Made by a program: the position numbers and the translations under genes. Under the pieces are notes generated by a model. That model was not told where the DNA came from, did no database searches, and saw only the letters and a program-made list of their open reading frames with translations. DNA of 64,000 nt from Sinohyriopsis cumingii (lineage: Eukaryota; Mollusca; Bivalvia; Unionida; Unionidae). Numbering within the stretch: position 1 is the stretch's first letter; each line of letters starts with the position of its first letter. The stretch covers positions 55,977,219 through 56,041,218 of the forward strand of contig CM068835.1 of NCBI GenBank assembly GCA_028554795.2. Reading direction: 5' to 3'. Positions 3,146-34,063 of the stretch are shown one piece after another.

Positions 3146-3184
3146 ATCTCTTTTCGAGAAATATGGCTGGCCCTGAAAAGGGCC
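3146..3184 (-). terminator. Histone-type 3' stem-loop plus purine HDE (left TIR)
   Basis: On the minus strand 3184-3169 reads GGCCCTTTTCAGGGCC: a 6-bp stem with a 4-nt loop, preceded by CCCAAA and followed by AGCCA. This is the consensus of the metazoan replication-dependent histone mRNA 3' end. Fourteen bases further, 3155-3146 reads GAAAAGAGAT, matching the U7-pairing histone downstream element. It lies 25 nt beyond the stop codon of the gene at 3590-3210. Confidence 0.85.
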
Positions 3185-3209
3185 TTTGGGTTTTCTTCTT
3201 CTTCTGCTT

Positions 3210-3590
3210 CTAATTTCTTCTTTTCCTCCACCAACTTCTTATTTTCTCACCTACACTCTTTTTCTTCTTTTTTTTCTCCTCCTCTTCTTTCTTCTCTTCC
3301 TCCTCTTCTTCTTTCTTCCTCTTCTCATTTTCTTCTTCTTTTTCAATTTTTTCATTCCATGCTCTCATCCTTGTCCTTTCTTCTTCATCCTCCTTCTCCT
3401 CCTTTATTTCCTTCATTACAGCACTTATCATATCCTTTGCTTTTCTTAAATTATTAATTTCCATTTTTACTCTATGCGGACTATAAGAATAGTGATCTTC
3501 AACTAGTCGTACGAGCATTTGTTCTATCATTCCCAAATTGTCAAGGACGTCTTGCAATGATTGAAATTTATCCAGGTGGTTTGAAGCCAT
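3210..3590 (-). CDS. Small accessory protein, helical with charged single-helix tail (126 aa)
   Basis: Family not recognised. Residues 1-60 look like a small helical domain (MASNHLDKFQSLQDVLDNLG and on). Residues 60-115 are almost entirely Glu, Lys and Arg, as in a stable single alpha-helix or coiled coil, and the end is basic with a WW pair. A diverged relative at 34113-34624 keeps the N-terminal pattern (MLVRL, YS.HR.K.EI), which supports a real gene. A TATA-like TATAAG lies near 3636 and the shared upstream motif at 3651-3670. The mRNA would end at the histone-type stem-loop. It is the outermost left gene and is transcribed toward the terminus. Function unknown. Confidence 0.7.
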   Translation of the reverse strand: MASNHLDKFQSLQDVLDNLGMIEQMLVRLVEDHYSYSPHRVKMEINNLRKAKDMISAVMKEIKEEKEDEEERTRMRAWNEKIEKEEENEKRKKEEEEEEKKEEEEKKKKKKSVGEKIRSWWRKRRN

Positions 3591-3630
3591 CTTCTATGAA
3601 GAATGGTTTGAACGACGAATACTGTGGGTT

Positions 3631-3739
3631 CTTATACGAAAAGCGCGAACGTGAAGGAAAACATCCCCCTAAAACATAAAATGGATCTTACCTAGATCAT
3701 GGCCCAACATCGCGCGTACGTGAAGGAAAACATCCCCCT
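3631..3739 (-). promoter_or_regulatory. Promoter with TATA box and two copies of the shared accessory-gene motif
   Basis: Reading toward the 3210-3590 gene, the motif GTGAAGGAAAACATCCCC (in + orientation) occurs at 3651-3670 and 3720-3739, each preceded by a GCG-rich CGCGNACGTG-like end. A TATAAG box follows at 3631-3636. The same motif sits next to TATA boxes at 4455, 34656 and 36896, so it is probably the binding site of one activator. I could not assign it to a known factor. Confidence 0.6.
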
Positions 3740-3944
3740 ACTTTCTCATTTTATATAATATAACCCTAACTATACTCTCCACATTTGCTAAGAAACCCAT
3801 AATCTACTATTCACACTAACATACCTGAGCTCTTACAAACACAAACACACTAACACACAAACGCATACCCTCACACTATCTTAAAAAAGAGTTAGTGTTT
3901 ATATACACACTACTCTACCTACACACATTGGCAAATCTATCGTT
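3740..3944. other. Non-coding spacer between accessory genes
   Basis: The stretch is AC-rich and AT-rich (ACACACTAAC-type runs) with no ORF. It carries the end of the upstream motif block on one side and the histone downstream element of the next gene on the other. A comparable AC-rich spacer lies at 4560-4670 and in the older copy near 34900-35000 and 36985-37140. Confidence 0.5.
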
Positions 3945-3983
3945 ATTTCTTTTCTAGAGTATTGGGTAGCCCTGAAAAGGGCT
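3945..3983 (-). terminator. Histone-type 3' stem-loop plus HDE of the 122-aa gene
   Basis: The minus strand 3983-3968 reads AGCCCTTTTCAGGGCT followed directly by ACCCA, a perfect histone-class stem, loop and 3' flank. AGAAAAGAAAT at 3955-3945 is the purine-rich downstream element. It lies 30 nt after the stop codon at 4014. The stem sequence differs from the TIR copy by a compensated end pair (A-T for G-C), so pairing rather than base identity is conserved. Confidence 0.85.
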
Positions 3984-4013
3984 GTTTTTTTTTGGAACTT
4001 CATGGGCACCTGG

Positions 4014-4382
4014 TTAATGGTGGCACCTTCCAGGCCTGGCGCCACATACACATCTTATCCCCCAATTACTTTTTACCTTTTGGGGGGAGAGAGCAGAGGC
4101 AGGATATGTCGCTTCAGAATCCCAATTTTCACTCTCTGGGATTCTGAAATTTTTTCTTCTCTCCTTTTCCTCCTCCTCTTCTTTGTATCTTCTCTCCTCC
4201 TCTTTATATCTTCTTTCCTCTTCTTCTTTATATCTTCTCTCCTCCTCTTCTTTGTTTCTTCTTTCCTCCTCTCTTATCCTTCCCTCCTCGACAATGGCTT
4301 CAGCGGCCAGTTCATTTAATATGCGCCTGGCATATTCCAGATGCACATGAAGTTCCAACAGTTTCTCCAGTCTCGTGTTCAT
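4014..4382 (-). CDS. Accessory protein with ER/K-rich single-helix repeats (122 aa)
   Basis: Family not recognised. The N-terminus (MNTRLEKLLELHVHLEYARR) is predicted helical. Residues about 33-76 form repeats of the type EEERRYKE, expected to be a single alpha-helix or coiled coil. The C-terminal 40 residues are Cys/Gly-containing and less regular. A degraded relative with the same N-terminal pattern is at 35060-35617. The promoter has TATAAAAT at 4434-4441 and the shared upstream motif at 4455-4473, and the transcript would end at the stem-loop 3983-3968. Function unknown. Confidence 0.65.
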   Translation of the reverse strand: MNTRLEKLLELHVHLEYARRILNELAAEAIVEEGRIREEERRNKEEEERRYKEEEERRYKEEERRYKEEEEEKERRKNFRIPESENWDSEATYPASALSPQKVKSNWGIRCVCGARPGRCHH

Positions 4383-4433
4383 TTTTGGTGTTGATCAATC
4401 AACAAGGGTAGCTGGACTGCCGAACGAGTTTCA

Positions 4434-4473
4434 TTTTATACTGAAAGCGCGTACGTGAAGGAAAACATCCCCT
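4434..4473 (-). promoter_or_regulatory. TATA box and shared upstream motif of the 122-aa gene
   Basis: Read on the minus strand, TATAAAAT at 4441-4434 lies about 50 nt before the start codon. The conserved motif (GTGAAGGAAAACATCCCC on the plus strand, 4455-4473) lies just upstream, with a GCGCGTACGTG edge. A further conserved element GCGCGGACCTAAA near 4525 recurs at 36958 in the older copy. Confidence 0.6.
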
Positions 4474-4672
4474 AAAAACATAAAATTCATCTTACCTAGA
4501 TCATGACAAAAAAACAACAACAACGCGCGGACCTAAAAGAAACACTCACTCACGTTTTTATGCTACCCATCACTTCAATAGACTATCCACATACGCAAGG
4601 CAATCCAATCTAACCCCAAATATACACCTCAAACAGCCAAAAAACTAACATCATTTTAATCTACTATACACA

Positions 4673-4993
4673 TCAATCTATTTTTTCACTTACAAACACA
4701 ATTACACAAACACACAAACTCATACCCTCACATTCTTGACTCAACATCAGGCATTTATCGTGTTGAATTTGACTGGGATGATCGTTTTGACATCCATAGC
4801 AATTTTTCTTGATCAATTCCGTTATTTTGTCGACCAAGTGTTTGGCAAAACAGGAGACTAAATGGGCTTCTTGTTCTGGCCATCTCGACTTCATCATGAC
4901 AATTTCTTCGTCTTGGGATTCTCCTTCCACGGTCTCCTTACATTCCATCTCCAAAGTTTCTTCACTAGGTAAAGAGGGACAACAGTCTTCCAT
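4673..4993 (-). CDS. Small acidic protein directly downstream of the capsid gene (106 aa)
   Basis: Unrecognised. The start (4993) lies 5 nt after the capsid gene's stop codon and sits in a good CCATGG context. The N-terminal 40 residues are acidic (MEDCCPSLPSEETLEMECKE). The middle is probably helical (about residues 45-65) and holds a CYGC pair; the end is hydrophobic and cysteine-containing. It could be a virion or accessory protein co-expressed with the capsid. No histone-type stem-loop follows it. Confidence 0.5.
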   Translation of the reverse strand: MEDCCPSLPSEETLEMECKETVEGESQDEEIVMMKSRWPEQEAHLVSCFAKHLVDKITELIKKNCYGCQNDHPSQIQHDKCLMLSQECEGMSLCVCVIVFVSEKID

Positions 4994-4998
4994 GGCTT

Positions 4999-6312
4999 CT
5001 AATAATCTAGAATGACTTCTCTCAAACTGTTGATTTCTATGGTATTATCGAATTCTGCATACAGGATGACGTTCACCGTTACATCAGGGTCTCGGTTTGC
5101 AAACTGAATTTCCACACGAATCTGGCCTGATTTTATAGGGTGAAAATGTCCCTCGTCGCTGCCTTGGTCTGGAGTGAAATCGAAAGCCCACAAAGCGTAG
5201 CCTCCTGCATAATCTTCGTACGTAATACCGTGACTGGTGTTGGTTCCTAACTGGCCGGTGGCTTCGTACAGGGACAAGTACGATCTCAAGTAATTCTTAT
5301 TCTCAAAGTCAGGCTCAAAGGGTCGGGTACACAAGGTCTTGCCATCGCGACTGACTTCGATTTTGGACACGCCAAAGTGTTGAAAGTAGAAAGGATTTTT
5401 TTCGGCAGCTCCGTTGAAGGCTGTATTCTCGACCATACCAACGATCAAACGTTTGGGTAACTGTCCTTGAAACAGATGATCTTCGATCATGGATCGCTGT
5501 CCCTTGGGAATGGTGAAGGTTTTCACTTCCACGCGTCGTATGGGATACTTGGCGGTCGTTCTACTCAACGTCTGACTGATGTCGTTTCCCACTTTAGGTA
5601 ACACTTCCACACGGCGTACGTAGAGTCTGGCTTCTAGGATTTTGGTTTTGTACTCGTCAGCATTACCCAATAAATGGAAAGCGGTACTGCTCCGATTCAG
5701 TCTCAGGCGAACATTCACTCCGTTTAGCAAATATTTCTCTTGCAACCACATGTCCAAATGCAAACGGTCCATCAGTTCTAAACTCTGTCCATCTTTGATT
5801 CTGTCTCTTCGTTCTATAAATCCCGCATTGTTTTTTTTGGCTGATGGATCAGTATCGAATGTTTCAAACTCGCCTGTTTCGTCAGCTTCCCATACTACAC
5901 AGGAATTGAGATGAGTGTTCTTGGCATCTATTCCGTACGTCAAGAGATTTTCCAGGTAGGCACGATAAGGGTAAGTATCCATGCTGCTACTGACCAGTTT
6001 GTTATTCAAGTACAAGTCCACTCCACTGAACAAGGAATGCATGAAATTGTTGACGGGAGCTACTGCTTCAGTGTCTATAGGACCTCCAGTCTTATCTAGA
6101 ATTTTGACTTTCAGGTACAAGTAACTGCTATTCAGATCGATGTAATCTTCGGGTTGTCCTTTGATGTCAAACTCGATGGGAGCAGAATCGGCCAATGAGG
6201 AGACGGGGTGAAATTCCACCCATTGGGATTCTTGCATGGTCATCATGGTGGGGGGCATGGCAAACAGATCCAGTTCCGTCTTGGAACAGGCGCAAGATTC
6301 TCGGTGCATCAT
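4999..6312 (-). CDS. Major capsid protein, double-jelly-roll hexon-like (437 aa)
   Basis: Forms the icosahedral shell in Polinton/adintovirus-type particles. The length and the N-terminal layout (a cysteine pair CAC then SKTELDLF, a WVEFHPVSSL strand, and DYIDLNSSYLYLKVKI) are typical of Polinton major capsid proteins. SLFSGVDLYLNNKLV and YPYRAYLENLLTYG at about residues 93-127 are family signatures. The ORF is uninterrupted. The gene is followed by the basic pX-like gene and the penton gene upstream on the same strand, with gaps of only 8-15 nt, so the three are probably co-regulated late genes. Met1 and Met2 are adjacent, so the exact start is ambiguous by one codon. Confidence 0.93.
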   Translation of the reverse strand: MMHRESCACSKTELDLFAMPPTMMTMQESQWVEFHPVSSLADSAPIEFDIKGQPEDYIDLNSSYLYLKVKILDKTGGPIDTEAVAPVNNFMHSLFSGVDLYLNNKLVSSSMDTYPYRAYLENLLTYGIDAKNTHLNSCVVWEADETGEFETFDTDPSAKKNNAGFIERRDRIKDGQSLELMDRLHLDMWLQEKYLLNGVNVRLRLNRSSTAFHLLGNADEYKTKILEARLYVRRVEVLPKVGNDISQTLSRTTAKYPIRRVEVKTFTIPKGQRSMIEDHLFQGQLPKRLIVGMVENTAFNGAAEKNPFYFQHFGVSKIEVSRDGKTLCTRPFEPDFENKNYLRSYLSLYEATGQLGTNTSHGITYEDYAGGYALWAFDFTPDQGSDEGHFHPIKSGQIRVEIQFANRDPDVTVNVILYAEFDNTIEINSLREVILDY

Positions 6313-6327
6313 TTTTTGTCTCTTTTC

Positions 6328-6744
6328 TCAATAATCGAAAACGTCTAAGTCTCGTACGGTTCTTCTTTTCTTGGCCTTTCTCGCTTGAAGTCTGGTGAAG
6401 GGGTGTTTTCTTCTTCGTCTCTTTCTGCCTTGTCCTTGCTGAATGCTTGACTCGGTATCGTGCAGGGCATTTATAGGTGTGTCTCGTCGGCCCAAAATGT
6501 CTTTACCCGTTTGCAGCAAGACATTTTTGCCTGCCCTCATGAAGGCTTCTTTAGGGTTTTGTTTGTCGATGATGACATTTTGGAGAAATTCTTTGCCTTG
6601 CGTCAGTGCCGCATCTTTCAAGGCGTGCAATCCGCGTGTCACCATCGGTTTCAACACCGGGGCCACCGAACGAAAGGCCGATTTTAACATGTCTCCTAAA
6701 CCGTGTCCTCGCTGTCGAGCCACCCCTCGGTACACTGGATACAT
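6328..6744 (-). CDS. Basic virion core / membrane-lytic-like protein (138 aa)
   Basis: The N-terminus is a Gly-containing amphipathic helix region (GHGLGDMLKSAFRSVAPVL, residues about 13-31), like membrane-active or core proteins of adeno-/adintovirus-type particles. The C-terminus holds strong basic clusters (RKRRRRKH and ARKAKKRR). It sits between the penton and major capsid genes. Assignment to a pVI- or pX-like role rests on position and composition, not on a firm homology. A TATAAAAGG-type box lies at 6837-6846. Confidence 0.65.
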   Translation of the reverse strand: MYPVYRGVARQRGHGLGDMLKSAFRSVAPVLKPMVTRGLHALKDAALTQGKEFLQNVIIDKQNPKEAFMRAGKNVLLQTGKDILGRRDTPINALHDTESSIQQGQGRKRRRRKHPFTRLQARKAKKRRTVRDLDVFDY

Positions 6745-6751
6745 GACTTAC

Positions 6752-7690
6752 TTACGAATCGTGAGAGAACCGTTTTCGAAAATGGAGTTTCACCGTGACT
6801 TTTCCTTTGGTGAATGGAATATTTTGTCCCAAATCTCCTTTTATAGTAATGTTGACCGTGTCCAAATACGACTTGCTGACCGGCAAATAGTGAGGATGGA
6901 CAAATTCGCGGTGGACGTGGTAAGTGTTTCCACCTTCCTCGTCAGCGTTTGCGGCAGAATCCACTTTGAAAGGAATGACACGCAGTAACGGTACGGAGGT
7001 GTGTCCCACCACGTTGTATTCCACCAGATCGGAGTACACGAACATCAAATTTAGTCCTTGGTTCAGTTCTACCGGGGTACGAAAATACTTGGCAAAAGTA
7101 TCGTTGTCAGAAATGACTAGTAATTCGCCTTTTTGTTGTTCTACTTTCTTCTTCATCTCCATGTCCCCGCCCAACATGTCAAACAATTCAGGACAAAATA
7201 AGAAAGACATGATTTTGGGCCCCTCAGGAAATTTTATCAGGAAGCGACGAGCTGTTTTGTGGTACTCCAGGGTGACACTTTTTTTGACACTTTCCAAAGC
7301 TTTCAGAAACACACCATTAAACCTGGTGGCTATGGTGCTGACCAAATGTTGACCACTAAAATAATAGCCTGGGGGAATGAACAAGTGATAGGTGGTCCAC
7401 TTTGGATTTTGTGTGTTACGGGTTTTCTTGTCATATTTGCCATGGGTATCCAAGTACTGTTGCATTTGTTCGTCATGAACTTCCACATCAAATTTATTTT
7501 GATTGGGAAGGACATTGAGGACTTGGGTCGGGTGAATCATTTCTACTAAAGCCACTTCCCAATGGGCTTCGTGATCTAAGGGGATGGCTTGAGGTAATTT
7601 GGCCGTGTAACAGCACAACGTGTTGTTGGGAAACACCTCCATGGAACTGTCACTGGGTAAGGTTAAGTAAAATTGGTTTTGGTGACTCAT
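6752..7690 (-). CDS. Minor capsid (penton-like, single jelly roll) protein (312 aa)
   Basis: The size, the gene order next to the major capsid gene and the beta-rich pattern match the Polinton minor capsid protein that forms the vertices. Seen features are an N-terminal FYLTLPSDSSMEVFPNNTLC segment, HWEVALVEMIHP at about residues 42-53, a central PPGYYFSGQHLV loop, and a C-terminal strand pair around VNITIKGDLGQ and KVTVKLHFRKR. Its stop codon is 7 nt from the next start. Its own start codon overlaps the stop of the upstream membrane-protein gene by four bases. Confidence 0.88.
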   Translation of the reverse strand: MSHQNQFYLTLPSDSSMEVFPNNTLCCYTAKLPQAIPLDHEAHWEVALVEMIHPTQVLNVLPNQNKFDVEVHDEQMQQYLDTHGKYDKKTRNTQNPKWTTYHLFIPPGYYFSGQHLVSTIATRFNGVFLKALESVKKSVTLEYHKTARRFLIKFPEGPKIMSFLFCPELFDMLGGDMEMKKKVEQQKGELLVISDNDTFAKYFRTPVELNQGLNLMFVYSDLVEYNVVGHTSVPLLRVIPFKVDSAANADEEGGNTYHVHREFVHPHYLPVSKSYLDTVNITIKGDLGQNIPFTKGKVTVKLHFRKRFSHDS

Positions 7691-8109
7691 AATTCCAGAG
7701 TTCTGTGGCTGTCCGAGGGAATATTAGTGGATGTCAGAGGTGTGTCTCCGCCCAAAATGGGGTTCTGATTGTGGTTGGACTGGTGACTGGCACTGGCACT
7801 GGACACAACGTTCCCGTTCGAGGAGAATTTCAGGGAGGGATTGGGAAGTAGGTAACCGATGCAACTGCTCAATAAAATGGTCCACAATTGTTTGTCTCCT
7901 TGTTGCAAACTCAAATTGGCGATGGCTGCCCCGATGACACAATACACCACGAAGATTTGGCAGAAAAAGACGATTTGCGTTTTAGGCACACGTTCTCCAC
8001 ACCACACCCACAAGGGTTGTTTTTGTAAATCTTGCACAGAAGAACTAGGGGAAGAAGGACTGGTCGACGTAGCTGCGTCTGCTGCTGTGTGAAAGGGCAT
8101 GATGGTCAC
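7687..8109 (-). CDS. Two-span membrane protein of the virion gene block (140 aa)
   Basis: After a Ser/Thr-rich N-terminus there is a conserved-looking core: VPKTQIVFFCQIFVVYCVIG (first membrane span, about 41-66) and WTILLSSCIGYLLPNP (second, about 76-91), followed by a Ser/Asn-rich tail. Short two-span proteins of this pattern are common in Polintons and may be virion membrane proteins. It overlaps the genes on both sides by 4 nt. The exact role is unknown to me. Confidence 0.7.
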   Translation of the reverse strand: MTIMPFHTAADAATSTSPSSPSSSVQDLQKQPLWVWCGERVPKTQIVFFCQIFVVYCVIGAAIANLSLQQGDKQLWTILLSSCIGYLLPNPSLKFSSNGNVVSSASASHQSNHNQNPILGGDTPLTSTNIPSDSHRTLEL

Positions 8110-9218
8110 TTCTTCTTTTTATAGTCGATGACTTGCGAAGCGTCGATCCAAGAATCGAAACTGGGTGGATATCCTTTCCAACGTACTTTGACTTCTTTGA
8201 CACGTCGTTTGCCCACTTTACGGGTTCTGCGTTCCAGAATGCTTTCGATGTCGTACACGTCGTCTTCTTTTTTGGTGACACGTTGTAACTCGGGCAAATA
8301 AAACGTTCCTTTGAGTACTTCTCCGTTCATGTCTTCCAATTTATAGACGGCAGGATGACGGCCATGCACTCGTCCAGTGACGCGAAACAATTCGGTCGTC
8401 CAGTTAGGTAAGTAACCTTTGTCGAAAGTGCGTTTGGTTTTGCCAATGCGCACCCAATCTCCTACGGTCAACTCTCCACTTTTCTTGGGGACAGCCCTCG
8501 TCGGGGACGTACCAAACAGGCGCTCAAACACCAGCACTTCGTTCTCGGGAGTCACGTCTTGCGGGGCACGTCCGATGCTTCGATGGTAAGATTGGTTGTA
8601 CGCTTGCACCAGGTGAGGTAAGATGTCGATGTACTTCAGAGTGTGGTGATGCGTAAAATATTTCCACATACGTTCTTTCAAAGTGCGTTGAAAACGTTCC
8701 ACGATGCTGGCTTTGGTTTCGGGATTCTCGGTGGTAAAAAAATGAATGTCACGTTTCTTTAATTCTTTTTGGAAAGCTTGGTTCAGAAATTCGGTGCCTT
8801 TGTCCATTTGCCATCGAAGAGGGTGACGGCCGCTTTGTTTCAATACCCGTTGCAGGGCTCGCACTAACTCGCTGCTGGATTTGGAAGTCAAAGGCACGAC
8901 CCAGGCAAATTTGGAAAAGACGTCGATGACACAAAACAAATATTTGTAGCCACGATTGTAGCTGGCTAAATGAGAGACATCGGCTAAATCGGCTTGCCAT
9001 TGATGATCGATGCCTTCCACTCGGGTGCGACTTCTGGCAAACTTGCGTCGAATGGGTTTGTGTAAAGTGTAGGTAGCTTGTTCTTGTAACCATCGTTGCA
9101 CTTGAGGTAAACGGAGACTTTTCAGTCGCGTTTTGGCAGCACGATACAATTTTTGAACTCCTGCGTAACCTGCAGGATGGGAGGGATCGTAGTAAATGCT
9201 GGCTAAGACTTTTTCCAT
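8106..9218 (-). CDS. Retrovirus-like integrase with C-terminal chromodomain (370 aa)
   Basis: Joins the linear element DNA to the host chromosome and creates the 6-bp duplication. The RVE catalytic core has D77 (HQWQADL), D139 (RWQMDKGTEF) and E174 (IVERFQRTLKE); the last two are 35 residues apart, a DD35E-like arrangement. An SH3-like DNA-binding part follows at about 240-300. A chromodomain fills the C-terminus at about 312-366 (YDIESILERR, VRWKGY, DSWIDASQVI), which would direct integration to methylated-histone chromatin. The N-terminal zinc-binding HHCC module is not evident. The ORF is intact. Confidence 0.96.
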   Translation of the reverse strand: MEKVLASIYYDPSHPAGYAGVQKLYRAAKTRLKSLRLPQVQRWLQEQATYTLHKPIRRKFARSRTRVEGIDHQWQADLADVSHLASYNRGYKYLFCVIDVFSKFAWVVPLTSKSSSELVRALQRVLKQSGRHPLRWQMDKGTEFLNQAFQKELKKRDIHFFTTENPETKASIVERFQRTLKERMWKYFTHHHTLKYIDILPHLVQAYNQSYHRSIGRAPQDVTPENEVLVFERLFGTSPTRAVPKKSGELTVGDWVRIGKTKRTFDKGYLPNWTTELFRVTGRVHGRHPAVYKLEDMNGEVLKGTFYLPELQRVTKKEDDVYDIESILERRTRKVGKRRVKEVKVRWKGYPPSFDSWIDASQVIDYKKKK

Positions 9219-9220
9219 TT

Positions 9221-9226
9221 TTTATT
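9221..9226 (-). terminator. Poly(A) signal AATAAA after the 211-aa gene
   Basis: AATAAA on the minus strand lies 14 nt beyond the stop at 9240 and just before the integrase start codon. It would serve conventional polyadenylation of the upstream late genes. No histone-type stem-loop is seen in this block, in contrast to the terminal genes. Confidence 0.5.
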
Positions 9227-9239
9227 TTGTGTTGGTGTG

Positions 9240-9875
9240 TTAATAAGGCACCCACTCTTGGAAGAGGCTACTCTTTTTCTCTTGGGGTATTTTCTTGGAT
9301 TGCAAGGCTTTGCGTGTGCGGCCAGCAATAGGTGTCGAAGAGGAGGATGTCTGAGCGGGGGATATCGGTTCTTGTTTCACTTCTGTCTTCACTTTCTTTT
9401 TCTCTTGTGAGGAAGAAGGGGTCGCCATCATCTTTTTAATCCATCCAATTCTGGAGGTAGGTGGTGTTGTTAACTTGCGTACTTTTTCTGGTGGAGTTTG
9501 AAACCCTTCTTCTTCTTCTTCTTTTCCTTTTTCTGTCTTGGTCACGGGTACTGGTGGTACTGGTACTGGTACTGGTACTGGTGATGGTGCTGGACTTTTC
9601 ATCAAGGTCTTAAAATCTTTCAGAGTGGGTAAAGCTGTTTCGTCTAAAGCTTTCTGGTGAAAGAGTTGCAGTCTTTGCAAGAGTTGACCGTACTTTTGCG
9701 ATTTTTCTGTTTCGGACAAATCTTGGCGATCCAGCAAGGATTGCAATTCGTGTTGCAACTGGGACATTTCGCTCAAATTGGGATTGGGAGGTAAATGCGG
9801 GGTGCGTTGTTCTTGCCACCGATGGTATTCCATCCATCGTTTGTAAGGCACTAAAGCTAGTTTTCGTCCTTCCAT
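9240..9875 (-). CDS. Virion-block protein with coiled coil, Pro-rich linker and basic tail (211 aa)
   Basis: The N-terminus (KLALVPYKRWMEYHRWQEQ) is followed by a probable coiled coil at about 35-75, a Pro/Val repeat linker (PVPVPVPVPP, about 100-112), an acidic run and a Lys/Thr/Ser-rich C-terminus ending in FQEWVPY. I recognise the general style of a Polinton structural or scaffold protein but not a named family. A minus-strand ATAAAAAGG box at 9921-9930 lies about 50 nt upstream, and a poly(A) signal follows the stop. Confidence 0.6.
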   Translation of the reverse strand: MEGRKLALVPYKRWMEYHRWQEQRTPHLPPNPNLSEMSQLQHELQSLLDRQDLSETEKSQKYGQLLQRLQLFHQKALDETALPTLKDFKTLMKSPAPSPVPVPVPVPPVPVTKTEKGKEEEEEGFQTPPEKVRKLTTPPTSRIGWIKKMMATPSSSQEKKKVKTEVKQEPISPAQTSSSSTPIAGRTRKALQSKKIPQEKKSSLFQEWVPY

Positions 9876-9920
9876 GGGGTTGTCAGGGGTGAATTCTGAG
9901 ATCTTGGGACTTCCGAAGGC

Positions 9921-9930
9921 CTTTTTATCT
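9921..9930 (-). promoter_or_regulatory. TATA-type box of the 211-aa gene
   Basis: The minus strand reads AGATAAAAAG followed by GCC. The same style (TATAAAAA plus a GG-rich edge) precedes other late genes, at 10366-10374, 11360-11366 and 14973-14980. Confidence 0.5.
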
Positions 9931-10341: not shown

Positions 10342-10360
10342 TGATACCCTACTCGGTCAC

Positions 10361-10377
10361 AGGCCTTTTTTATACTG
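10361..10377 (-). promoter_or_regulatory. TATA box of the 138-aa core gene
   Basis: The minus strand reads CAGTATAAAAAAGGCCT. It lies within the last codons of the upstream 318-aa gene, showing how tightly the late genes are packed. Confidence 0.6.
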
Positions 10378-11326: not shown

Positions 11327-11357
11327 ACTGTGTGAGACAGACGAAAAAGGGTCTGAG

Positions 11358-11370: not shown

Positions 11371-11374
11371 TTTT

Positions 11375-13675: not shown

Positions 13676-13687
13676 GAATAGGTCATA

Positions 13688-14143: not shown

Positions 14144-14171
14144 GAACAGATGATTATGGTAAGAAGTTACT

Positions 14172-14915: not shown

Positions 14916-14970
14916 CTTGTTCGCTCGGTCTTGGTAGTCACAATGAACTATCGATCTTGACCATAGCCCC

Positions 14971-14980
14971 CTTTTTATAC
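14971..14980 (-). promoter_or_regulatory. TATA box of the 247-aa BIR gene
   Basis: The minus strand reads GTATAAAAAG followed by GGGG. It lies directly downstream of the stop codon region of the second BIR gene (14975). Confidence 0.6.
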
Positions 14981-15433
14981 TAGTCGCAATGCAGTCTCCA
15001 GCTTGTACATCTTTCCTTTTTTACGTTTTTTATGTCTTGTTTCGGAAGGTACCGTCTCTAAGGTACCGTCAACATTGTACCGTAGTGTGATGGGTGGAAA
15101 GGCCATAGAAAGGTAAGGGCAGTGCGGAGACCATCGAGTATGTTCCAGAATAGCTGAATCTTTATAGATACATAGATCCATTCGTAACTTCAGTCCGCAA
15201 GCGAAACACTGCACCTCGTATCCCAATCCTGACTCAGGTCCCAAGTAGACAAATCCTGTTCTAGCTAAAACATGCGAAGAAGGTAATCCTTCCCTATCCG
15301 TAGGCCATTTCTGAAACGTGTCCAATCGACGGGCACAATCACAATAGTCAGGTAAGAAGACTGGAAAATGGTAGGGTTTGAACTTGGAGTTCTCATCGGG
15401 TTTCTCACTCGATTCTTGCTGTGGCGAAGTCAT
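14975..15433 (-). CDS. Single-BIR protein with basic tail (152 aa)
   Basis: BIR domain at about 22-110 with ligands C76-x2-C79-x18-H98-x6-C105 (QCFACGLKLRM, LEHTRWSPHC). The loop is two residues longer than usual. The N-terminus is hydrophilic; the C-terminal 30 residues are basic (HKKRKKGK). No RING. It is paralogous to the 247-aa protein only in the BIR. Its TATA box (15477-15471) lies inside the 3' end of the polymerase gene. Likely role: inhibition of host apoptosis. Confidence 0.87.
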   Translation of the reverse strand: MTSPQQESSEKPDENSKFKPYHFPVFLPDYCDCARRLDTFQKWPTDREGLPSSHVLARTGFVYLGPESGLGYEVQCFACGLKLRMDLCIYKDSAILEHTRWSPHCPYLSMAFPPITLRYNVDGTLETVPSETRHKKRKKGKMYKLETALRLV

Positions 15434-15457
15434 CTTTCTGGTGGGGTAACTATCCTC

Positions 15458-18400
15458 TTACAACCAATGTTTTATACCAACGTGTCCATACGGTAAGGTG
15501 AAATGATTGGGAAGTCGAACTCGCTTCTGGTACACGATTTGATAAACTTTTTCCAAAGGTCGACTGACGATGTGGTGAGTGGGTAAACGTACAATCTTGT
15601 TCGGTTGGTGAGTGGTCACTTTAAAGTTTCCATCCTCTCCCGATTGCAAGGCTTCTTTCAATACCCCAAAGTTGACCACTCGACTGGTACGATAATTCAG
15701 AGTCAGTCCTTTCACTTTGCACGTCGTGTGCACTTCTCCTTGTTTGTCCCGGTATTCGTAGCCGTAATTTTTGGGACCGCCACTGACGAAACTTAGAATC
15801 TTGTCGTCGGGATGTTCGTCTGTCCAGGCTCCTAAACGGTCTCCTTCGATGTTAGGGTGATGTTGAATCGGGTGATGGATGTAAATGCAACTGTCCGTGT
15901 CAAAGTACAGGACGCGTTCTTCTAACAGTTCTAAAGCTTCGTACAATTTTAAGCGAGCATGGGCTGTCACGTAAGCCGCAATGATGACATTTCCAAAAGG
16001 GTCGTCTTGCACAAAGTCCAGATCTTCTTCGTAATTGACCAAGATCAAATTCTCTCGAACGACGTCCACGTGTTTCATGTATTTGGTTTTGTCGTGAATC
16101 ATCTGGAAGTAGCGGGAAGGTTCTGTCAAATATTCCGTCTTGGGTAAACACGGTCGTTGTGCCATTTTGCCCCACAAGCAATTTAACATCACTTTGGCAA
16201 ACGATCGCCTGCCTTCGTTTTTCTCGATGTGGTCTAAAGTGATGCCTTCTTGTTCGTAGTATTTCTCTTTGAATTGTATTTGGTCTTCGGGAGTGTGACA
16301 CCAGGAAGGATAGCCGCTGGCTTCTTGCTTCAGTTTCAAAAAGGCATCCACGTAGTCGGCGAAAATGCCTTTCTGCGTGGGGTCACCCTTGCGGTATTGT
16401 TGTGTCTTGGGAAAGTGGCAAATTTCGTACACTTCTAACAGTTGGTATCCCATGTCCATAGCTTTGAACAATTCTACGCTGACCCAGGTTCCCGTCAAGG
16501 CCCGTTCTTCCTGGCTGTGCTGACAAGCTTGGTCTTGGTTGCACGTTTCGGCACAAGTACGGCACAAGGGAAACATCAATTTGCCTTGACAATGGTGAGG
16601 TAAGACGGGATGGTAGAGGTTCGTGGGAGGCAAAACTTTGCACTTGATCAAGCCTTCGTATTGTCGAATGTTTTTCAGGTCGATGTGTTCCGTTAACAAT
16701 TGCGGGTGCCCTACAGGAAAGCGACAATATTTGCACACGTAGGGATACAGCGAACACACGTCCAAGTATTTGATTTCTTCTCCGTTCTCTTCGTCGACTT
16801 GGTACAGCAAACAGGTGGCATTGGTCCTTCCTCCGTACAAACTATCCCTCGGGTTCAGCGGGTCCACGAACTGGTAACTTTCCACGAGGCGTTTAAACTC
16901 GGGATCGGTTTTCAAACGGTGATCGTATTCGTGTTCCCACATTTCCACCACTTGGTATCCTTGCTGTTCTAACTTTAGGCGTCGCTGACAAGTGTCCTGG
17001 TACAAGTCTTCCATGGTTCGTTGTAAAAACTGATTTTTAGTGCTACGATCAGGGTAACAGACGGGACATCCGTGAAATAAGCAACCGTTAAATTCGTACA
17101 CGATCTTGGGGTTTTCTAAGTCCCAGCCATCGACCGAATACGTTCCGATGGTCTTTTCGCCCCCTCCGTTGCGGGCATGCTGAATCCATTTGTCTTCCTT
17201 GTCGCACAAGTAATGTAACCAGCGTAGGGCTTTGACCGAGTATTGACGTTTGACAAAGTGGGTCGTTTGAGGACTGATGACAGCCACGGTGTTTTCAGGC
17301 ATGAATCGTTGTCGATACACTAAGGAACACGCTTTGGCAATGGTGCAAGCTTCTTTCAAAGGATCCACCCCTCCGTGTTCCATGAACAGTTCTCGAAATT
17401 TTCCACAGCAACGCCGTAAAATGTCCACGTCGGAACGACAATACTTTAGCATTTCTTCCTGAAAGTCGAAAGGGTCCGAGGCGTGAGCCTGGTACCAAGC
17501 GTAAAAAGCTTCTCGTTGTTCGGTACGCATGTTGTCGGGGTCGTAATAGTGAGCCTCAGGCAAATGGGGTAGAACGGCGTGTTGATTGGCTTCCGTATTG
17601 AAAAAGTGTGGAAAGTACCCTTTAGCCATTTCTGTCATTCCAAACGTTTTAGGCATTCGACTCAAAGGCATGGCCAAGTAACTCATCGAATCTTTAAACT
17701 GCACTTGTCCCACTTGCATGAAAATGATTTTGGCTCCGTTCAAAGTCACTTTAGGACGCTCGGTGCCTTGTTCTGTATAGTACCTCAAAAGAAACTGTCC
17801 ATCGTATCCGGAGAAATTGTGAGCCATCACCGTGGCATGACGATGACAATCTCCGTAACGTTCGATGTCCTCTTGGCTCCACGTCTTGTCGACGGGGTCT
17901 AAGACCCATTGGGCAAAATCGGCTAGCGTGTTGGGTCCCCGAAAGATTTTTTCACGCCCTCCGGGAATCTTGCTGCAGTGAGGGCAATGACTGAAGATAG
18001 GTTCTTGAATGCACTTCTCGCACGCTCGATGAGCCACGCAGAAATTAGGAATGTGAATGCCGGTTTCTTGCATGCATTCGAAATCGAAAAAGATGAAATT
18101 GCCTTTCTTCTTGTGACCGTCCTCTTTCTCTGGTGGGGGCTGGTATTTTTGCACGTAACATTGGTGTTCCAAGTCCACGATGTGGTGACAAATGTGACAT
18201 TTTTTCTTTCCTGAACATACGTGTGCCTTGGTATTATTGATACGTATGACTTGTTCACACGTAGGGCACAATCTCAGGAGTTGACAAGCACATTTCTTCT
18301 GTGAACCTTGCGTTTTCAGATGTTGTTGGTAACAGGTAGGGCTGACAAACGTACGCAGACAAGTGGAACAAGGCACTGGTTCTTCGCTCAGACAGGGTGA

Positions 18401-19495
18401 AGAGGCCAAACATCCTGAGCATTTCGATCCACAATGCTTGTGTTGCTCTCGATTATTATAACCATGGTCACATTTCTCACAGTAATAACCGTATCCCAGG
18501 AATCCGGTGATACTGGTAATGGTATCAAAATGGTCATCGTGATGATAAACGTGAATGTATTTTCCGTCCTTAAAATCTTGCCCTCGAAACAACAGAGACC
18601 CGCGCACTTCTTGAGGGTACACTTTCAAGGTGTATCGTGGAGCTAGGGCATCTTGCAATTTTTGCATCTCAGGAATGCCACAGGGTGTGTCTTTGGACAG
18701 TCCGGCTTGTCGTAACAGGAGTTCTGCTTCGTTTCGTTGTTTGGCTCGGTCGGAACGTTGAATAGTGTCCCAGGTTCTTTTCCATTCTACCGTGTCGTTC
18801 TTGTTGGCATAGGTTCGTCCCACCACGATGGCACGGGCTAAACACATCTGGTCATGAGGGTTCTTAATTCGGACGAGACTTGTTTTGGTGTTGCGAAGGT
18901 CGTCCACCAATAACATCTTTTTGCGCCCTGTCCCTTGAGGAGGAGAGACGTGGGTCATGTCCAGTGTGGCTTTACCATCGGTGATGTCAAACTGATCATT
19001 AGATTGTTGTACGTGTTGAATCTTGTCCATGACTTTGGAAGCAGTTAATTCTGCAGGGGTGCTAAACTCGATCCAAACAGGGGATTTCAAACCGTCGTGT
19101 TGTATGGAAAGTCTCAAGCGATCGTCTTCTTTGGGTTGACATTGTCGCTTGAGTGCAGTGAGCAAAGAATCCCACACCTCGGTGATGAACACTTCTGCTT
19201 TCTCTAACGGCACTTCAGCCTTGAAATCTTTAAACTTCACCGTGTATTTGTAAGCCGTAGTTCTAAATTTTCTAGAGGAGCGCTTTTCCGTCTCTCGAAT
19301 GGAATAGTAATTTTCAGGGTTAACTAAGGGTGATGAACTTGGTTTAGAGGGTTCGGATTCTGGTTCACTCATGTCCTCTTCAAAATCACTGGCATGAATT
19401 TGTGCCAAGATTTCAGCCCTGGTACGAGGCGATAGATCACGTTTCTGCCTCTTACTTTCTTCTTCTTTCTTCTCGAATGAATGGGATCGTTTCAT
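15458..19495 (-). CDS. polB: Protein-primed family B DNA polymerase (1345 aa)
   Basis: Replicates the linear element, presumably by protein priming at the TIRs. The N-terminal 300 residues are poorly conserved. A Cys/His-rich zone at about 339-445 suggests several zinc fingers. The exonuclease has Exo I FFDFEC (D471, E473), Exo II HNFSGYDG (about 559-566) and Exo III YCRSDVD (685-691). The insert EFNGCLFHGCPVCY at 801-814 precedes the palm. Motif A is YLDVCSLYP (910-918), motif B KVMLNCLWGK (1101-1110) and motif C YFDTDSC (1197-1203); DTD is intact. The ORF is full length. The gene shares a divergent promoter with the CCHC gene. A truncated relative is at 37550-39702. Confidence 0.97.
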   Translation of the reverse strand: MKRSHSFEKKEEESKRQKRDLSPRTRAEILAQIHASDFEEDMSEPESEPSKPSSSPLVNPENYYSIRETEKRSSRKFRTTAYKYTVKFKDFKAEVPLEKAEVFITEVWDSLLTALKRQCQPKEDDRLRLSIQHDGLKSPVWIEFSTPAELTASKVMDKIQHVQQSNDQFDITDGKATLDMTHVSPPQGTGRKKMLLVDDLRNTKTSLVRIKNPHDQMCLARAIVVGRTYANKNDTVEWKRTWDTIQRSDRAKQRNEAELLLRQAGLSKDTPCGIPEMQKLQDALAPRYTLKVYPQEVRGSLLFRGQDFKDGKYIHVYHHDDHFDTITSITGFLGYGYYCEKCDHGYNNREQHKHCGSKCSGCLASSPCLSEEPVPCSTCLRTFVSPTCYQQHLKTQGSQKKCACQLLRLCPTCEQVIRINNTKAHVCSGKKKCHICHHIVDLEHQCYVQKYQPPPEKEDGHKKKGNFIFFDFECMQETGIHIPNFCVAHRACEKCIQEPIFSHCPHCSKIPGGREKIFRGPNTLADFAQWVLDPVDKTWSQEDIERYGDCHRHATVMAHNFSGYDGQFLLRYYTEQGTERPKVTLNGAKIIFMQVGQVQFKDSMSYLAMPLSRMPKTFGMTEMAKGYFPHFFNTEANQHAVLPHLPEAHYYDPDNMRTEQREAFYAWYQAHASDPFDFQEEMLKYCRSDVDILRRCCGKFRELFMEHGGVDPLKEACTIAKACSLVYRQRFMPENTVAVISPQTTHFVKRQYSVKALRWLHYLCDKEDKWIQHARNGGGEKTIGTYSVDGWDLENPKIVYEFNGCLFHGCPVCYPDRSTKNQFLQRTMEDLYQDTCQRRLKLEQQGYQVVEMWEHEYDHRLKTDPEFKRLVESYQFVDPLNPRDSLYGGRTNATCLLYQVDEENGEEIKYLDVCSLYPYVCKYCRFPVGHPQLLTEHIDLKNIRQYEGLIKCKVLPPTNLYHPVLPHHCQGKLMFPLCRTCAETCNQDQACQHSQEERALTGTWVSVELFKAMDMGYQLLEVYEICHFPKTQQYRKGDPTQKGIFADYVDAFLKLKQEASGYPSWCHTPEDQIQFKEKYYEQEGITLDHIEKNEGRRSFAKVMLNCLWGKMAQRPCLPKTEYLTEPSRYFQMIHDKTKYMKHVDVVRENLILVNYEEDLDFVQDDPFGNVIIAAYVTAHARLKLYEALELLEERVLYFDTDSCIYIHHPIQHHPNIEGDRLGAWTDEHPDDKILSFVSGGPKNYGYEYRDKQGEVHTTCKVKGLTLNYRTSRVVNFGVLKEALQSGEDGNFKVTTHQPNKIVRLPTHHIVSRPLEKVYQIVYQKRVRLPNHFTLPYGHVGIKHWL
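15471..15477 (-). promoter_or_regulatory. TATA box of the 152-aa BIR gene, inside polB
   Basis: The minus strand reads GGTATAAAAC within the last codons of polB, about 40 nt before the BIR gene start at 15433. Confidence 0.5.
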
Positions 19496-19629
19496 CTTGA
19501 AAGCAAAAAGTCAAATGACTCAAGTTCAAACACCATAAACTACTTTATAGTCATAGCAGACCAGCGTATATAAAAGGGTGTGTGTCTTGTCCTTTCACTA
19601 TTCATTTCACTCTCAAGCCGAGCACAACG
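19496..19629. promoter_or_regulatory. Divergent promoter between polB and the CCHC gene
   Basis: A minus-strand CTATAAAG box (19542-19552) points to polB and a plus-strand TATATAAAAG box (19567-19576) points to the CCHC gene. The two boxes are about 20 nt apart, so the two genes are probably coordinately expressed early. Confidence 0.65.
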
Positions 19630-20100
19630 ATGGAAGAGACTGACCAGATGGAACGTTTCGTCAGAGCTTTGCGAGGGGTCATTAGAAAATTCTCTTCAGA
19701 CCAGCCTACGGACTATTCTCCTTCCTTTAGAGATAAAAGTCAAGATACTTGCTATATCTGTCAGAAGAAAGGGCATTGGTCTTCAGAGTGTCCAGACCGT
19801 CAAAAAAGAAAAAAAACAGGGGATAAAAAAGACAAAAGTCAAGATACCTGTTATTATTGTAAAGAAAAAGGACATTGGTCTCCAGATTGCCCAAAAAAGA
19901 AACAAGAGGAGTCAGAAGAAAAGAGGAATTCTTCAGAAGAAGAGAGGGATTCTTCAGAGGAAGAGAGGGATTCTTCTGAGGAAGAAAGAAGACAGGTGAA
20001 GAAAAAGAAACAGGAGAAAAAAAGAAGAAGGGAAGAAAGCGAGGAGGAAGAAGAGGAAAAGAGTGTGACGGTGAAGAAATTAAAAAAACAGAGAGACTAA
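19630..20100 (+). CDS. Twin CCHC zinc-knuckle protein with Ser/Glu repeats (156 aa)
   Basis: Two zinc knuckles C-x2-C-x4-H-x4-C: CYICQKKGHWSSEC and CYYCKEKGHWSPDC. They are followed by SSEEERD repeats and a mixed acidic/basic tail. Knuckles of this type bind single-stranded nucleic acid, so a role in replication or genome handling is plausible. The open frame begins at 19582, but the TATA box at 19567 implies transcription starts near 19600, so I chose the Met at 19630 (MEETDQMERF). A poly(A) signal lies at 20188. The decayed relative at 39843 has a TA microsatellite in the first knuckle. CCHC genes are not part of the usual Polinton core set. Confidence 0.75.
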   Translation: MEETDQMERFVRALRGVIRKFSSDQPTDYSPSFRDKSQDTCYICQKKGHWSSECPDRQKRKKTGDKKDKSQDTCYYCKEKGHWSPDCPKKKQEESEEKRNSSEEERDSSEEERDSSEEERRQVKKKKQEKKRRREESEEEEEEKSVTVKKLKKQRD

Positions 20101-20187
20101 ACAAGGAGAAAAGAAGAAATTAATGAACTTTTTTATTAAAGTGTTGTGTTATAAATTGTGAATTGGATTGTAAAAAATGGAGAAAAG

Positions 20188-20193
20188 AATAAA
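20188..20193 (+). terminator. Poly(A) signal AATAAA of the CCHC gene
   Basis: AATAAA lies 87 nt after the stop codon on the plus strand. This gene therefore seems polyadenylated, unlike the stem-loop genes around it. Confidence 0.45.
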
Positions 20194-20326
20194 TGAATGA
20201 TATAAGGTAAGTGTCTTTGAGTTGTGATTTTAAAATAAGAAGCTACACTCACGCACTCATACACAGACACGTACTAAAAAGGTAACATGGGTGAGTTTTT
20301 TTGAGTTATTGGCAAATTGAAATTGT

Positions 20327-20365
20327 ATTTCTTTTCGAGAAATGTGGGTGGCCCTGAAAAGGGCC
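20327..20365 (-). terminator. Histone-type 3' stem-loop plus HDE of the 193-aa gene
   Basis: The minus strand 20365-20350 reads GGCCCTTTTCAGGGCC followed by ACCCA, identical to the histone consensus. GAAAAGAAAT at 20336-20327 is the downstream purine element. It begins 27 nt after the stop codon at 20393. The stem and flanks match the TIR copies, but this site is outside the TIR. Confidence 0.88.
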
Positions 20366-20392
20366 TTTTTTAATTAAGGTGTAGGGGTGAGT

Positions 20393-20974
20393 TTAAGCAA
20401 TCAATTTTAACTGCCTTAAGCCTTTGCCACGGCCAAGGCCTACTTCTGGACTGCGTAATGTTGATGATGATAATGATTGGGTTGAAATCACTAAGGGTGG
20501 TACGGTAGGCTTAGTCACAGGGTTGACATGTTTGGCTCGGGAAGGTCGTATTCTCTTCGGTCGTGATAAAGAAGTCTGATACATTTGTTTCAGACTTCTT
20601 AACTCCGCTAAAATGTCCAACAGTACCGTGACCGTTTGATTTTCACCCTCTTGTTTCTTTGCTGCTACTTCTTCTTGCTGTTGTTGCTGTTGTTTTTTTC
20701 TTACCTCTTCTTCTTGTTGCTGTTGCTGTAGGAGAAAAGCCTGTTCCGCTTCCTTTTGTCGTTGTATAAATTTCTCCAATTCTTCTTTCTGTCTCTGTCT
20801 AAAATTATCCACTTGCGGTAATGAAGAAAGTAACGAAGGTTCCGGAACAAATTCTTGCGAGGAGAGAAAATCCACAAAATCCCAATTCACCTCTTCTGAA
20901 AGTAAGTCCGGGTTCCCTTGGGCAGTCTCCCCTGCTGGTGCACCCCACTGGATCGTTTTCTGAGTTTCCGTCAT
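20393..20974 (-). CDS. Gln/Glu-rich coiled-coil accessory protein (193 aa)
   Basis: An acidic N-terminus with Trp/Phe residues (NWDFVDFLSSQEF) is followed by a coiled coil at about 55-105 with Gln runs. A conserved LRSLKQMYQTSL segment comes next at about 127-138, then a basic PKRIRPSRAKH stretch and a C-terminal GLGRGKG. The last three blocks are retained in the older copy (40699-41331), which suggests they are functional. The acidic W/F region could be a transactivation domain and the basic part nuclear localisation, but that is inference. Promoter with a CRE-like TGACGTCA; the transcript ends at a histone-type stem-loop. Confidence 0.7.
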   Translation of the reverse strand: MTETQKTIQWGAPAGETAQGNPDLLSEEVNWDFVDFLSSQEFVPEPSLLSSLPQVDNFRQRQKEELEKFIQRQKEAEQAFLLQQQQQEEEVRKKQQQQQQEEVAAKKQEGENQTVTVLLDILAELRSLKQMYQTSLSRPKRIRPSRAKHVNPVTKPTVPPLVISTQSLSSSTLRSPEVGLGRGKGLRQLKLIA

Positions 20975-21020
20975 GTTGAATCACTGTCGCATAGATTGAC
21001 TGCACACAAGCGCTAGCGAA

Positions 21021-21149
21021 TCTATATTGACTACGTGACGTCACAGACTGCTCTCTTCGGATTGGATGCGAGCTGACTGAATTCTGTAACGCGTGTTCGG
21101 ATTGGTAAATGAACTCAATCCGTTTCAATCCTTCCTCCGCCTATAAATA
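21021..21149. promoter_or_regulatory. Divergent promoter with CRE palindrome TGACGTCA and TATA boxes
   Basis: Between two accessory genes. TGACGTCA at 21036-21043 lies just upstream of a minus-strand TATA-like ATATAG (about 21022-21028) for the 193-aa gene. A plus-strand TATAAATA at 21142-21149 precedes the 21194 gene. The older copy keeps TGACGTCACAG at 41368-41378 next to TATATAGG. TGACGTCA is the ATF/CREB consensus. A GCTCTCTTCG-ATTGG block is also shared, including a CCAAT-box complement. Confidence 0.65.
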
Positions 21150-21193
21150 AGCGCCGTTCACTGCATTGATTCACCTGTTCTCGTCGCTTCAAG

Positions 21194-21427
21194 ATGTGGA
21201 CTACAGTTGAGTCATCCACCCTTGTGTCTTCCATGATGTTTCGGACAGACTTGCTCATGTATGTCCGATCGAAGTGGACCGTTGTCCACAGGACAAACAC
21301 CAGCCTGTGGATACGTAGGATCTACGTCGAAAGACAAGGATGCCTGAAAAGAGTGCTGATGTACGGACCAACAGTAAGACGCAGCCTAAGGACAAGAAGA
21401 AGACCAATGCGGTGCCATTTATGTTAA
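21194..21427 (+). CDS. Conserved small basic accessory protein (77 aa)
   Basis: Unrecognised family. A relative at 41534-41848 matches over most of its length (MWT.V.SS.L.SSM.F..D, then LW..R.YVE.QG.LKR.L.YGP.VRRSL). This protein-level conservation between diverged elements makes it a real gene. It is mostly helical with a basic end (RRSLRTRRRP). TATA box at 21142, and a histone-type stem-loop 25 nt after the stop. It is the outermost right gene, transcribed toward the terminus. Confidence 0.7.
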   Translation: MWTTVESSTLVSSMMFRTDLLMYVRSKWTVVHRTNTSLWIRRIYVERQGCLKRVLMYGPTVRRSLRTRRRPMRCHLC

Positions 21428-21442
21428 TGAATACATTAACAT

Positions 21443-21769
21443 AAAACCCAAAGGCCCTTTTCAGGGCCAGCCATATTTCTCGAAAAGAGATAGTCTTTGA
21501 ATTGCCTACCCCTTTTGTTTTAAAAAAATTTTTTTTAAAAAAATCCCATGTTAAATTCCCCTTGTCCGTAGATTGTCCCACGATTTATTCCCATGTTAAA
21601 TTCCCCTTGTCCGTAGATTGTCCCACGATTTATTCCCATGTTAAATTCCCCTTGTCCGTAGATTGTCCCACGATTTTTCGCCATGTTAAATTTCCATTGT
21701 CCGTAGATTGTCCCAAGGGGTTCTGTAATGCTAATTCCCATTGTCCGTAGAGTATCCCCCTTCACTACT
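21443..21769 (-). repeat. Right terminal inverted repeat, 327 bp
   Basis: The inverse of 2868-3194. It ends ...TTCACTACT directly before the AAGGTG duplication at 21770-21775. Identity with the left TIR apart from the AT core argues for recent integration or gene conversion. Confidence 0.97.
21453..21491 (+). terminator. Histone-type 3' stem-loop plus HDE (right TIR)
   Basis: GGCCCTTTTCAGGGCC at 21453-21468 is preceded by CCCAAA and followed by AGCCA. GAAAAGAGAT follows at 21482-21491. It is the inverted partner of the site at 3184-3146, so each TIR carries the 3' processing signal for the gene that runs into it. Confidence 0.85.

Positions 21770-34028: not shown

Positions 34029-34063
<35 letters not shown>

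Follow-up and report, generated by a model that had tools for sequence, protein, structure and literature searches.

The 3′ ends of metazoan histone mRNAs are formed by the stem-loop-binding protein (SLBP), which binds a stem-loop, and by the U7 small nuclear ribonucleoprotein (snRNP), which binds a purine element further downstream; the transcript is cleaved between the two, and outside S phase the mRNA is unstable. To our knowledge, the animal mRNAs with a stem-loop in place of a poly(A) tail are essentially those of histones. This article describes a Polinton (Maverick) element, designated E1, in the genome of the unionid bivalve Sinohyriopsis cumingii, located within a stretch of 64,000 nucleotides (assembly GCA_028554795.2, contig CM068835.1, positions 55,977,219 to 56,041,218 of the forward strand) that is called the window here and to which all coordinates refer unless another locus is named. 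Four genes of E1 that do not encode histones, g1 to g4, have 3′ ends that match those of the host histone genes, two of them share promoter motifs with histone genes as well, and it is likely that these genes are expressed by the host histone-mRNA machinery during replication.

E1 has in common with Polintons a DNA polymerase B (PolB; Pfam DNA_pol_B_2), an integrase of the rve family with a chromodomain, an A32-like packaging ATPase, terminal inverted repeats, and a 6-bp target site duplication, and it contains a likely capsid open reading frame (ORF). The related adintoviruses are defined by a PolB with an OTU-like N-terminus and a hexon recognizable by BLASTP against adintovirus references (PMC11071296). 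E1 differs from both groups in that some of its genes have 3′ ends of the histone type, two of these genes also sharing promoter motifs with histone genes. Another link between histones and an animal DNA virus is provided by the 'Histoid' genes of adomaviruses, whose protein is said to resemble histones (PMC11071296); in that case the protein is histone-like, whereas in E1 it is the RNA and promoter signals that are, and the proteins are not. The original prediction for this DNA, made from its letters alone, knew of no description of histone-type 3′ ends in Polintons, and none was found in the titles and listings of the open-licence literature searched; the terms 'stem-loop', 'histone', and 'polyadenyl' are likewise absent from PMC11071308.

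Stem-loops were scored with the Rfam Histone3 model (RF00032; gathering score 34 bits), for which window matches were listed to E 0.1, and with R1, a model built from seven window sites only and applied to the window to E up to 1. Behind g1 (3210–3590, minus strand) lies a stem-loop at 3169–3184 on the same strand, 25 nt past the stop codon, with the purine motif AAAAGA at 3149–3154 and an Rfam score of 35.6 bits (3189–3144). The g2 gene (4014–4382, minus strand) is followed after 30 nt by a stem-loop at 3968–3983 (minus; AAAAGA at 3948–3953), which scores 31.0 bits (3988–3943), under the gathering score, and has A-T as its outermost pair instead of G-C. The highest score, 41.2 bits (20370–20326), belongs to the stem-loop of g3 (gene 20393–20974, minus strand; stem-loop 20350–20365, minus; AAAAGA 20330–20335), 27 nt past the stop codon, and that of g4 (gene 21194–21427, plus strand; stem-loop 21453–21468, plus; AAAAGA 21483–21488), at 25 nt, again reaches 35.6 bits (21448–21493). 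Three of the four sites therefore exceed the gathering score. The stem-loop letters are GGCCCTTTTCAGGGCC at three sites and AGCCCTTTTCAGGGCT at one, followed by an ACCCA or AGCCA flank. All four sites of the original prediction were thus recovered where it had placed them, both by reading the sequence and with the Rfam model, and the distance of 25–30 nt from stop codon to loop that it had given agrees with the measured 25, 30, 27, and 25 nt. The purine element that it had set 12–14 nt further on is present at each site, with AAAAGA starting 14 nt after the stem-loop throughout. The count of four loci stands, yet the g1 and g4 sites lie inside the terminal inverted repeats and so represent a single site in two copies. 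At most sites, including the E2 counterparts introduced below, a TTGCCAA-like conserved stretch is also seen about 13–18 nt past AAAAGA (near 3130, 3930, and 20310).

The combination of stem-loop and AAAAGA occurs seven times in the window and not once in 200 dinucleotide shuffles of the whole window; the finding that would have told against the prediction, matches as frequent in shuffled sequence, was not obtained. Behind the capsid, ATPase, integrase, inhibitor of apoptosis (IAP), and polymerase genes of E1 there is no match to Histone3 (E ≤ 0.1) or R1 (E ≤ 1), which bears out the absence noted earlier for the first three, and no E1 ORF other than g1–g4 precedes a match to either model. The four proteins themselves do not look like histones. 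The g1 product (126 aa) is Lys/Glu-rich and likely a coiled coil, and that of g2 (122 aa) is also Lys/Glu-rich, neither having a Pfam family above its cut-off; g3 (193 aa, 20 relatives) has a Gln/Glu-rich middle and a basic C-terminal part, and g4 (77 aa) is basic, with a net charge of +13 and no Pfam match. Pfam revealed no histone domain in g1–g4, and a tblastn search of the window with five host histones (E up to 0.01) gave no match.

The host's own H3, H4, H2B, H2A, and H1 genes form a tandemly repeated unit of about 8.3 kb, the host H1 having bivalve H1 proteins as its best named relatives. One such unit (L126) was scanned with both models. Histone3 matches lie behind all five genes (35.0–39.4 bits), and R1, built from window sites, finds these five at 38.5–59.8 bits and nothing else in the unit, with H2B nearest to the Polinton sites (59.8 bits). 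The stem GGCCCT/AGGGCC is common to the E1 sites and to host H3, H4, H2B, and H2A; the host purine element is CTAGAAAAGA (GAAAAGA) in four of the five genes and CCCGAAAAGG (GAAAAGG) in H2A; and the gaps from stop codon to loop in the five genes are 28, 27, 34, 35, and 38 nt, as against 25–30 nt in E1. The E1 sites resemble the Histone3 family in their 6-bp stem, TTTC loop, ACCCA-type flank, GAAAAGA element, and position 25–30 nt past a stop codon; they differ from it in that the genes they follow are not recognizable histones (Lys/Glu-rich, Gln-rich, or basic products, and a zinc finger in the distant Polinton L018 discussed below) and stand in a mobile element rather than in a histone array. 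A histone gene is the probable source of the signals, and H2B is the nearest of the five.

A decayed and shortened second Polinton in the window, E2 (33702–42262, approximate bounds taken from its terminal repeats), which the original prediction had not listed, shows 54% identity to E1 in its two longest stretches of polymerase and keeps four clear stem-loop sites and a fifth, decayed one. Its g1 stem-loop (34201–34216, minus strand) contains one G-U pair and scores 24.0 bits with the Rfam model; its g3 stem-loop (40657–40672, minus) lies 26 nt past a stop codon and scores 28.0 bits; and its g4 stem-loop (41780–41795, plus) has lost the outer two pairs, the g4 counterpart being 54.5% identical over 77 aa. 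At 35053–35068 (minus) the stem-loop is decayed and the purine element intact (R1 28.5 bits), with a g2-like stretch (35112–35336) just upstream, and a further site stands at 37171–37186 (minus; Rfam 26.6 bits). The latter involves g5, a fifth gene of the stem-loop class that is present in another copy, E3 (L038:1462–1827, plus strand, 121 aa, stop-to-loop gap 30 nt), has no counterpart in E1, and matches E2 at 37271–37486 (60% over 77 aa). Since this match lies directly before 37171–37186, that site is assigned to g5 and the decayed one to g2. The three Rfam scores in E2 (24.0–28.0 bits) fall under the gathering score, and the other two sites were not listed at E 0.1. An E1 ORF at 4673–4993 (minus) corresponds to two separate stretches of E3, which lie on either side of g5 at a distance of about 1.6 kb from each other, as if the stretch holding g5 had been lost from E1.

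Conservation was counted between E1 (E3 for g5) and E2 over the five corresponding sites, with flanks aligned with gaps. Identity is 71/80 in the stem-loops and 135/226 in the flanks (Fisher p 7.8e-7). The g1 and g3 sites taken alone, a subset in which neither the decayed site nor the repeated terminal sequence plays a part, give 30/32 against 55/89 (p 5e-4). Stem, spacing, and purine element are thus those of the host histone genes, and the sites have been kept between diverged copies; their assignment to the histone 3′-end type, already made in the original prediction, is strongly supported.

Further copies are found in the host DNA around the window. In 220 kb of flanking sequence R1 identified seven sites above 59 bits, the next best match reaching 19.5 bits; six stand behind relatives of g1–g4 and one behind g5, and all are located in the copies E3 and E4, the former with a polymerase 99.8% identical to that of E1 over 1326 residues and the latter decayed. 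Both copies are situated upstream of the window, at a distance of no more than about 60 kb (C12:55.92–55.98 Mb; L036–L040, L029), in a region rich in insertions. A search of the 2.90-Gb host genome with RF00032 yielded 589,472 first-look candidates, of which 75 were scored; all 75 passed the gathering score and were fetched. Sense-strand blastx placed 29 of these behind g4, 23 behind g3, and 11 behind g1; most of the 12 left without assignment show a g1-like end by eye. In 72 of the 75, the distance from the loop to AAAAGA is exactly 14 nt, and host histones found no match among the 75 pieces by tblastn (E up to 0.01).

The likeness to histone genes extends to the promoters of g1 and g2, a feature absent from the original prediction. 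The 23-mer GATGTTTTCNNTCACGTNCGCGC, common to host H2B and H1, occurs twice upstream of g1 (3643–3665 and 3712–3734, minus strand) and once upstream of g2 (4447–4469, minus), and the promoter of host H4 contains a 21-mer that recurs unchanged upstream of g2 (4522–4542, minus). Nine copies of the 23-mer are present in 301,384 bp: three in E1, four in gene-class promoters of E3, and two before H2B and H1 in the histone unit. The promoter pairs g1-H2B, g1-H1, g2-H4, g2-H2B, and g2-H1 each outscore all 1500 random host windows, the similarity to H2B and H1 spanning 24–26 bp in the alignments. A shorter form of the motif, GGGGATGTTTTCCTTCACG, stands before g1 (twice) and g2, recurs with one mismatch at two places in E2, and is found with three mismatches at one further place in the window, inside a gene with a baculovirus IAP repeat (BIR) domain. 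Candidate histone promoter elements, namely motifs shared with H2B, H1, and H4, thus occur at g1 and g2 and not at g3 and g4. The divergent g3/g4 promoter (20975–21193) instead has TGACGTCA at 21036, ATTGG at 21061 and 21101, and TATAAATA near 21142; TGACGTCA occurs three times in the window, once in an E2 terminal repeat and otherwise in the promoters that g3/g4 have in E1 and E2. A link between this promoter and that of H3 was dropped, as 397 of 1500 random windows score equally and 58 of 1500 share as many 9-mers.

Genome-wide, the 23-mer is present 37,481 times, as against none for its reversed control. Among the first 100 places 93 are clustered, many with spacings of about 69, 660–750, and 820–910 bp like those of E1 and E3, so that most places probably belong to Polintons, whose copies would then number in the thousands; the count and the first 100 places together suggest a very large Polinton expansion in this host.

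Since stem, spacing, and purine element are alike in the Polinton sites and the host histone genes, the mRNAs of g1–g4 are read as likely products of the SLBP/U7 route. The stem-loop would be the target of SLBP and the GAAAAGA element that of base pairing by U7 snRNP, with cleavage a few nucleotides past the loop, at ACCCA. From what is established about SLBP and U7, we infer that the resulting mRNAs lack a poly(A) tail and accumulate in S phase, when an element that encodes its own polymerase would find nucleotides and replication factors. The proposal in the original prediction that the element couples a gene class to the host S phase or escapes poly(A)-based control is partly supported. The g1 and g2 promoter motifs would likely form a second layer, placing transcription in step with that of the histones. 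As the capsid, ATPase, integrase, and polymerase genes lack these signals, E1 likely has two classes of gene expression, and the position of the terminal-gene signal at the inner edge of the terminal repeat implies that an outward transcript would end there. If this is true, the SLBP/U7 pathway would have a natural user from outside the histones in a mobile element with non-histone genes, which supplies many natural sequence variants with which the tolerance of that pathway can be tested; it would point to a way in which Polintons synchronize their activity with host DNA replication and would explain an absence of g1–g4-type transcripts from poly(A)-selected data. That E1 encodes a protein forcing the host into S phase is not claimed, since LXCXE-like motifs are loose in four of its proteins and absent from g1–g4.

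Other Polintons were approached through a scan of the genome_contigs collection, which gave 14 polymerase-bearing loci, most of them filed under bacterial metagenome-assembled genomes (MAGs) and encoding animal-like Polinton polymerases. One of these, L018, which lies far from E1 in a quick polymerase tree, has a site at 8335–8380 that scores 35.8 bits with Histone3 and 46.9 bits with R1. It stands 29 nt after the stop codon of a terminal ORF for an 89-aa C2H2 zinc-finger protein that points to the contig end, and it has a TATC loop and the purine stretch CAAAAAAGAGA; the promoter region of the zinc-finger gene contains three copies of TGACGTCA. A single case cannot separate old inheritance from independent gain. 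It does hint that the device is widespread in animal Polintons, and the stronger proposition that the transposon imitates complete histone transcription units, from promoter to 3′ end, to serve a gene class of its own, yielding tailless mRNAs restricted to S phase that are common in animal Polintons and unseen in poly(A)-selected RNA-seq, strikes us as evenly poised between true and false. A 24.6-bit match in the MAG of L026 was taken as chance, being under the cut-off, as is a match in Lactococcus lactis. The L018 contig also encodes a TATA-binding protein (7189–7695, minus strand; Pfam TBP, 96 bits), which is unexpected in a Polinton, and ends in CATTGTCC-rich repeats comparable to the terminal repeats of E1.

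Several results weigh against expression of these genes through the histone route. The check on other Polintons with the Histone3 model, proposed at the outset, succeeded for L018 and failed for the other 13 of the 14 loci, which have no site by either Histone3 or R1, and none of 12 loci from the viral_contigs collection has one by R1, the only model applied there (best 15.4 bits, E 0.77); scans of that collection, queried by polymerase sequence and alignment, by the g3 alignment, and by three stem-loop patterns, likewise gave no relative carrying a stem-loop. Many of those loci are fragments or very distant (best segments 24–38% in the 12 viral_contigs loci) and may lack such genes. The g3/g4 promoters have no significant match to histone promoters, as many as 59 of 1500 random windows scoring as high even in the best case. 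The spacing is looser elsewhere than in E1: the g3 gap in E4 is 20 nt, and among the fetched genomic copies gaps vary over 21–27 nt for g3, 7–23 nt for g4, and 15–25 nt for g1, with g1 copies also at 54 and 56 nt and one that has lost its frame. One identical stem-loop sequence accounts for 69 of the 75 scored genome sites, which indicates that the sample favours the commonest stem-loop, and the host histone sites, although above the cut-off, are missing from the 75. Covariation is weak, with one pair changed on both sides, a number matched by 263 of 500 shuffles, and a covariation score attained by 21 of 500. An ATTAAA lies 18 nt past the g3 stop codon, so that g3 does have a signal of the poly(A) type; AATAAA or ATTAAA occurs within 100 nt past the stop codon in four other E1 ORFs (4673, 9240, 12207, and 19630) and most ORFs have neither, which together leave the poly(A) side of the argument weak. 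Searches of the host for U7 and SLBP matched nothing, as did their controls, and are thus uninformative either way.

These observations also bear on what else the stem-loops might be. They could serve as a compact 3′-end signal or terminator near the genome ends, cleaved through SLBP and U7 and having no meaningful link to S phase, an explanation to which the two outward-reading sites at the inner edges of the terminal repeats lend themselves, as does the g3/g4 promoter with its TGACGTCA, ATTGG, and TATA and no histone-type motif. We consider it unlikely, given that the g2 and g3 sites are internal, that the g1 and g2 promoter motifs are common to H2B, H1, and H4, and that the other genes of E1 do without the signal. 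It is rather improbable that the transfer ran in the opposite direction, with abundant Polintons as the source from which the host histone genes obtained their promoter motif, or even the entire 3′ block, a course of events that would leave the function unchanged. The 37,481 copies of the 23-mer in the genome, with 93 of the first 100 places in Polinton-like clusters, as against two in the histone unit, speak for such a transfer, but histone 3′ stem-loops are old in animals, and the promoter similarity to H2B and H1 is limited to its short span.

Two further explanations deny the sites any role in mRNA 3′-end formation. Dead remnants of captured histone gene fragments, functionless in their present place, would account for the closeness of the sequence to the 3′ end of host H2B; however, no histone remnant was detected by the tblastn searches of the window and the 75 pieces, the stem-loop is better kept than its flanks between E1 and E2, and several different gene families carry it shortly after the stop codon, all of which makes this origin very improbable. 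Scarcely more credible, and if anything less so, is the idea that the repeats act as DNA at the element ends, forming hairpins or being bound during replication or integration. One pair of sites does lie in the terminal repeats, yet every E1 site, the internal ones included, follows a stop codon in the sense strand, and the histone loop, ACCCA-type flank, and purine element stand in the order of the host histone genes within a conserved block. Expression through the host histone-mRNA machinery is the likely reading and the one retained here for g1–g4.

The element E1 spans 18,902 bp (2868–21769), as delimited by its terminal inverted repeats, flanking letters, and Pfam gene set, and is bordered by the 6-bp target site duplication AAGGTG at 2862–2867 and 21770–21775, read in both flanks. 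The left terminal inverted repeat (2868–3194, 327 nt) is 99% complementary to the right (21443–21769); the inner end of the former carries the g1 stem-loop and that of the latter the g4 stem-loop, and tandem 45-bp subrepeats occupy 2868–3093 and 21544–21769. On the minus strand lie the PolB gene (15458–19495), the integrase with its chromodomain (8106–9218), and the A32-like ATPase (11375–12118), all identified by Pfam, together with the likely major capsid protein (4999–6312), which matched no Pfam family, is 33% identical to an L018 ORF of equal size, and is a candidate for the double jelly-roll capsid protein of Polintons. The best relatives of the polymerase are about 47% identical, oysters providing the best-scoring named ones, and a quick polymerase tree places E1 in a mollusc-rich part. 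Pfam also identified one zinc-knuckle protein and two BIR proteins, the latter encoded by adjacent BIR-domain (inhibitor of apoptosis) genes at 14172–14915 and 14975–15433 (both minus). In P0133, a relative of g3, the protein continues beyond its normal terminus, and the additional residues (…QWPISGPPTSLEKR…) are interpretable as a translated stem-loop and CTCGAAAAG about 28 nt after a lost stop codon, a reading from protein alone that is not counted as evidence. Two tandem duplicate genes of E1 whose products start with MDTLQE, with no assigned function, lie at 12916–13440 and 13688–14143, both on the minus strand.

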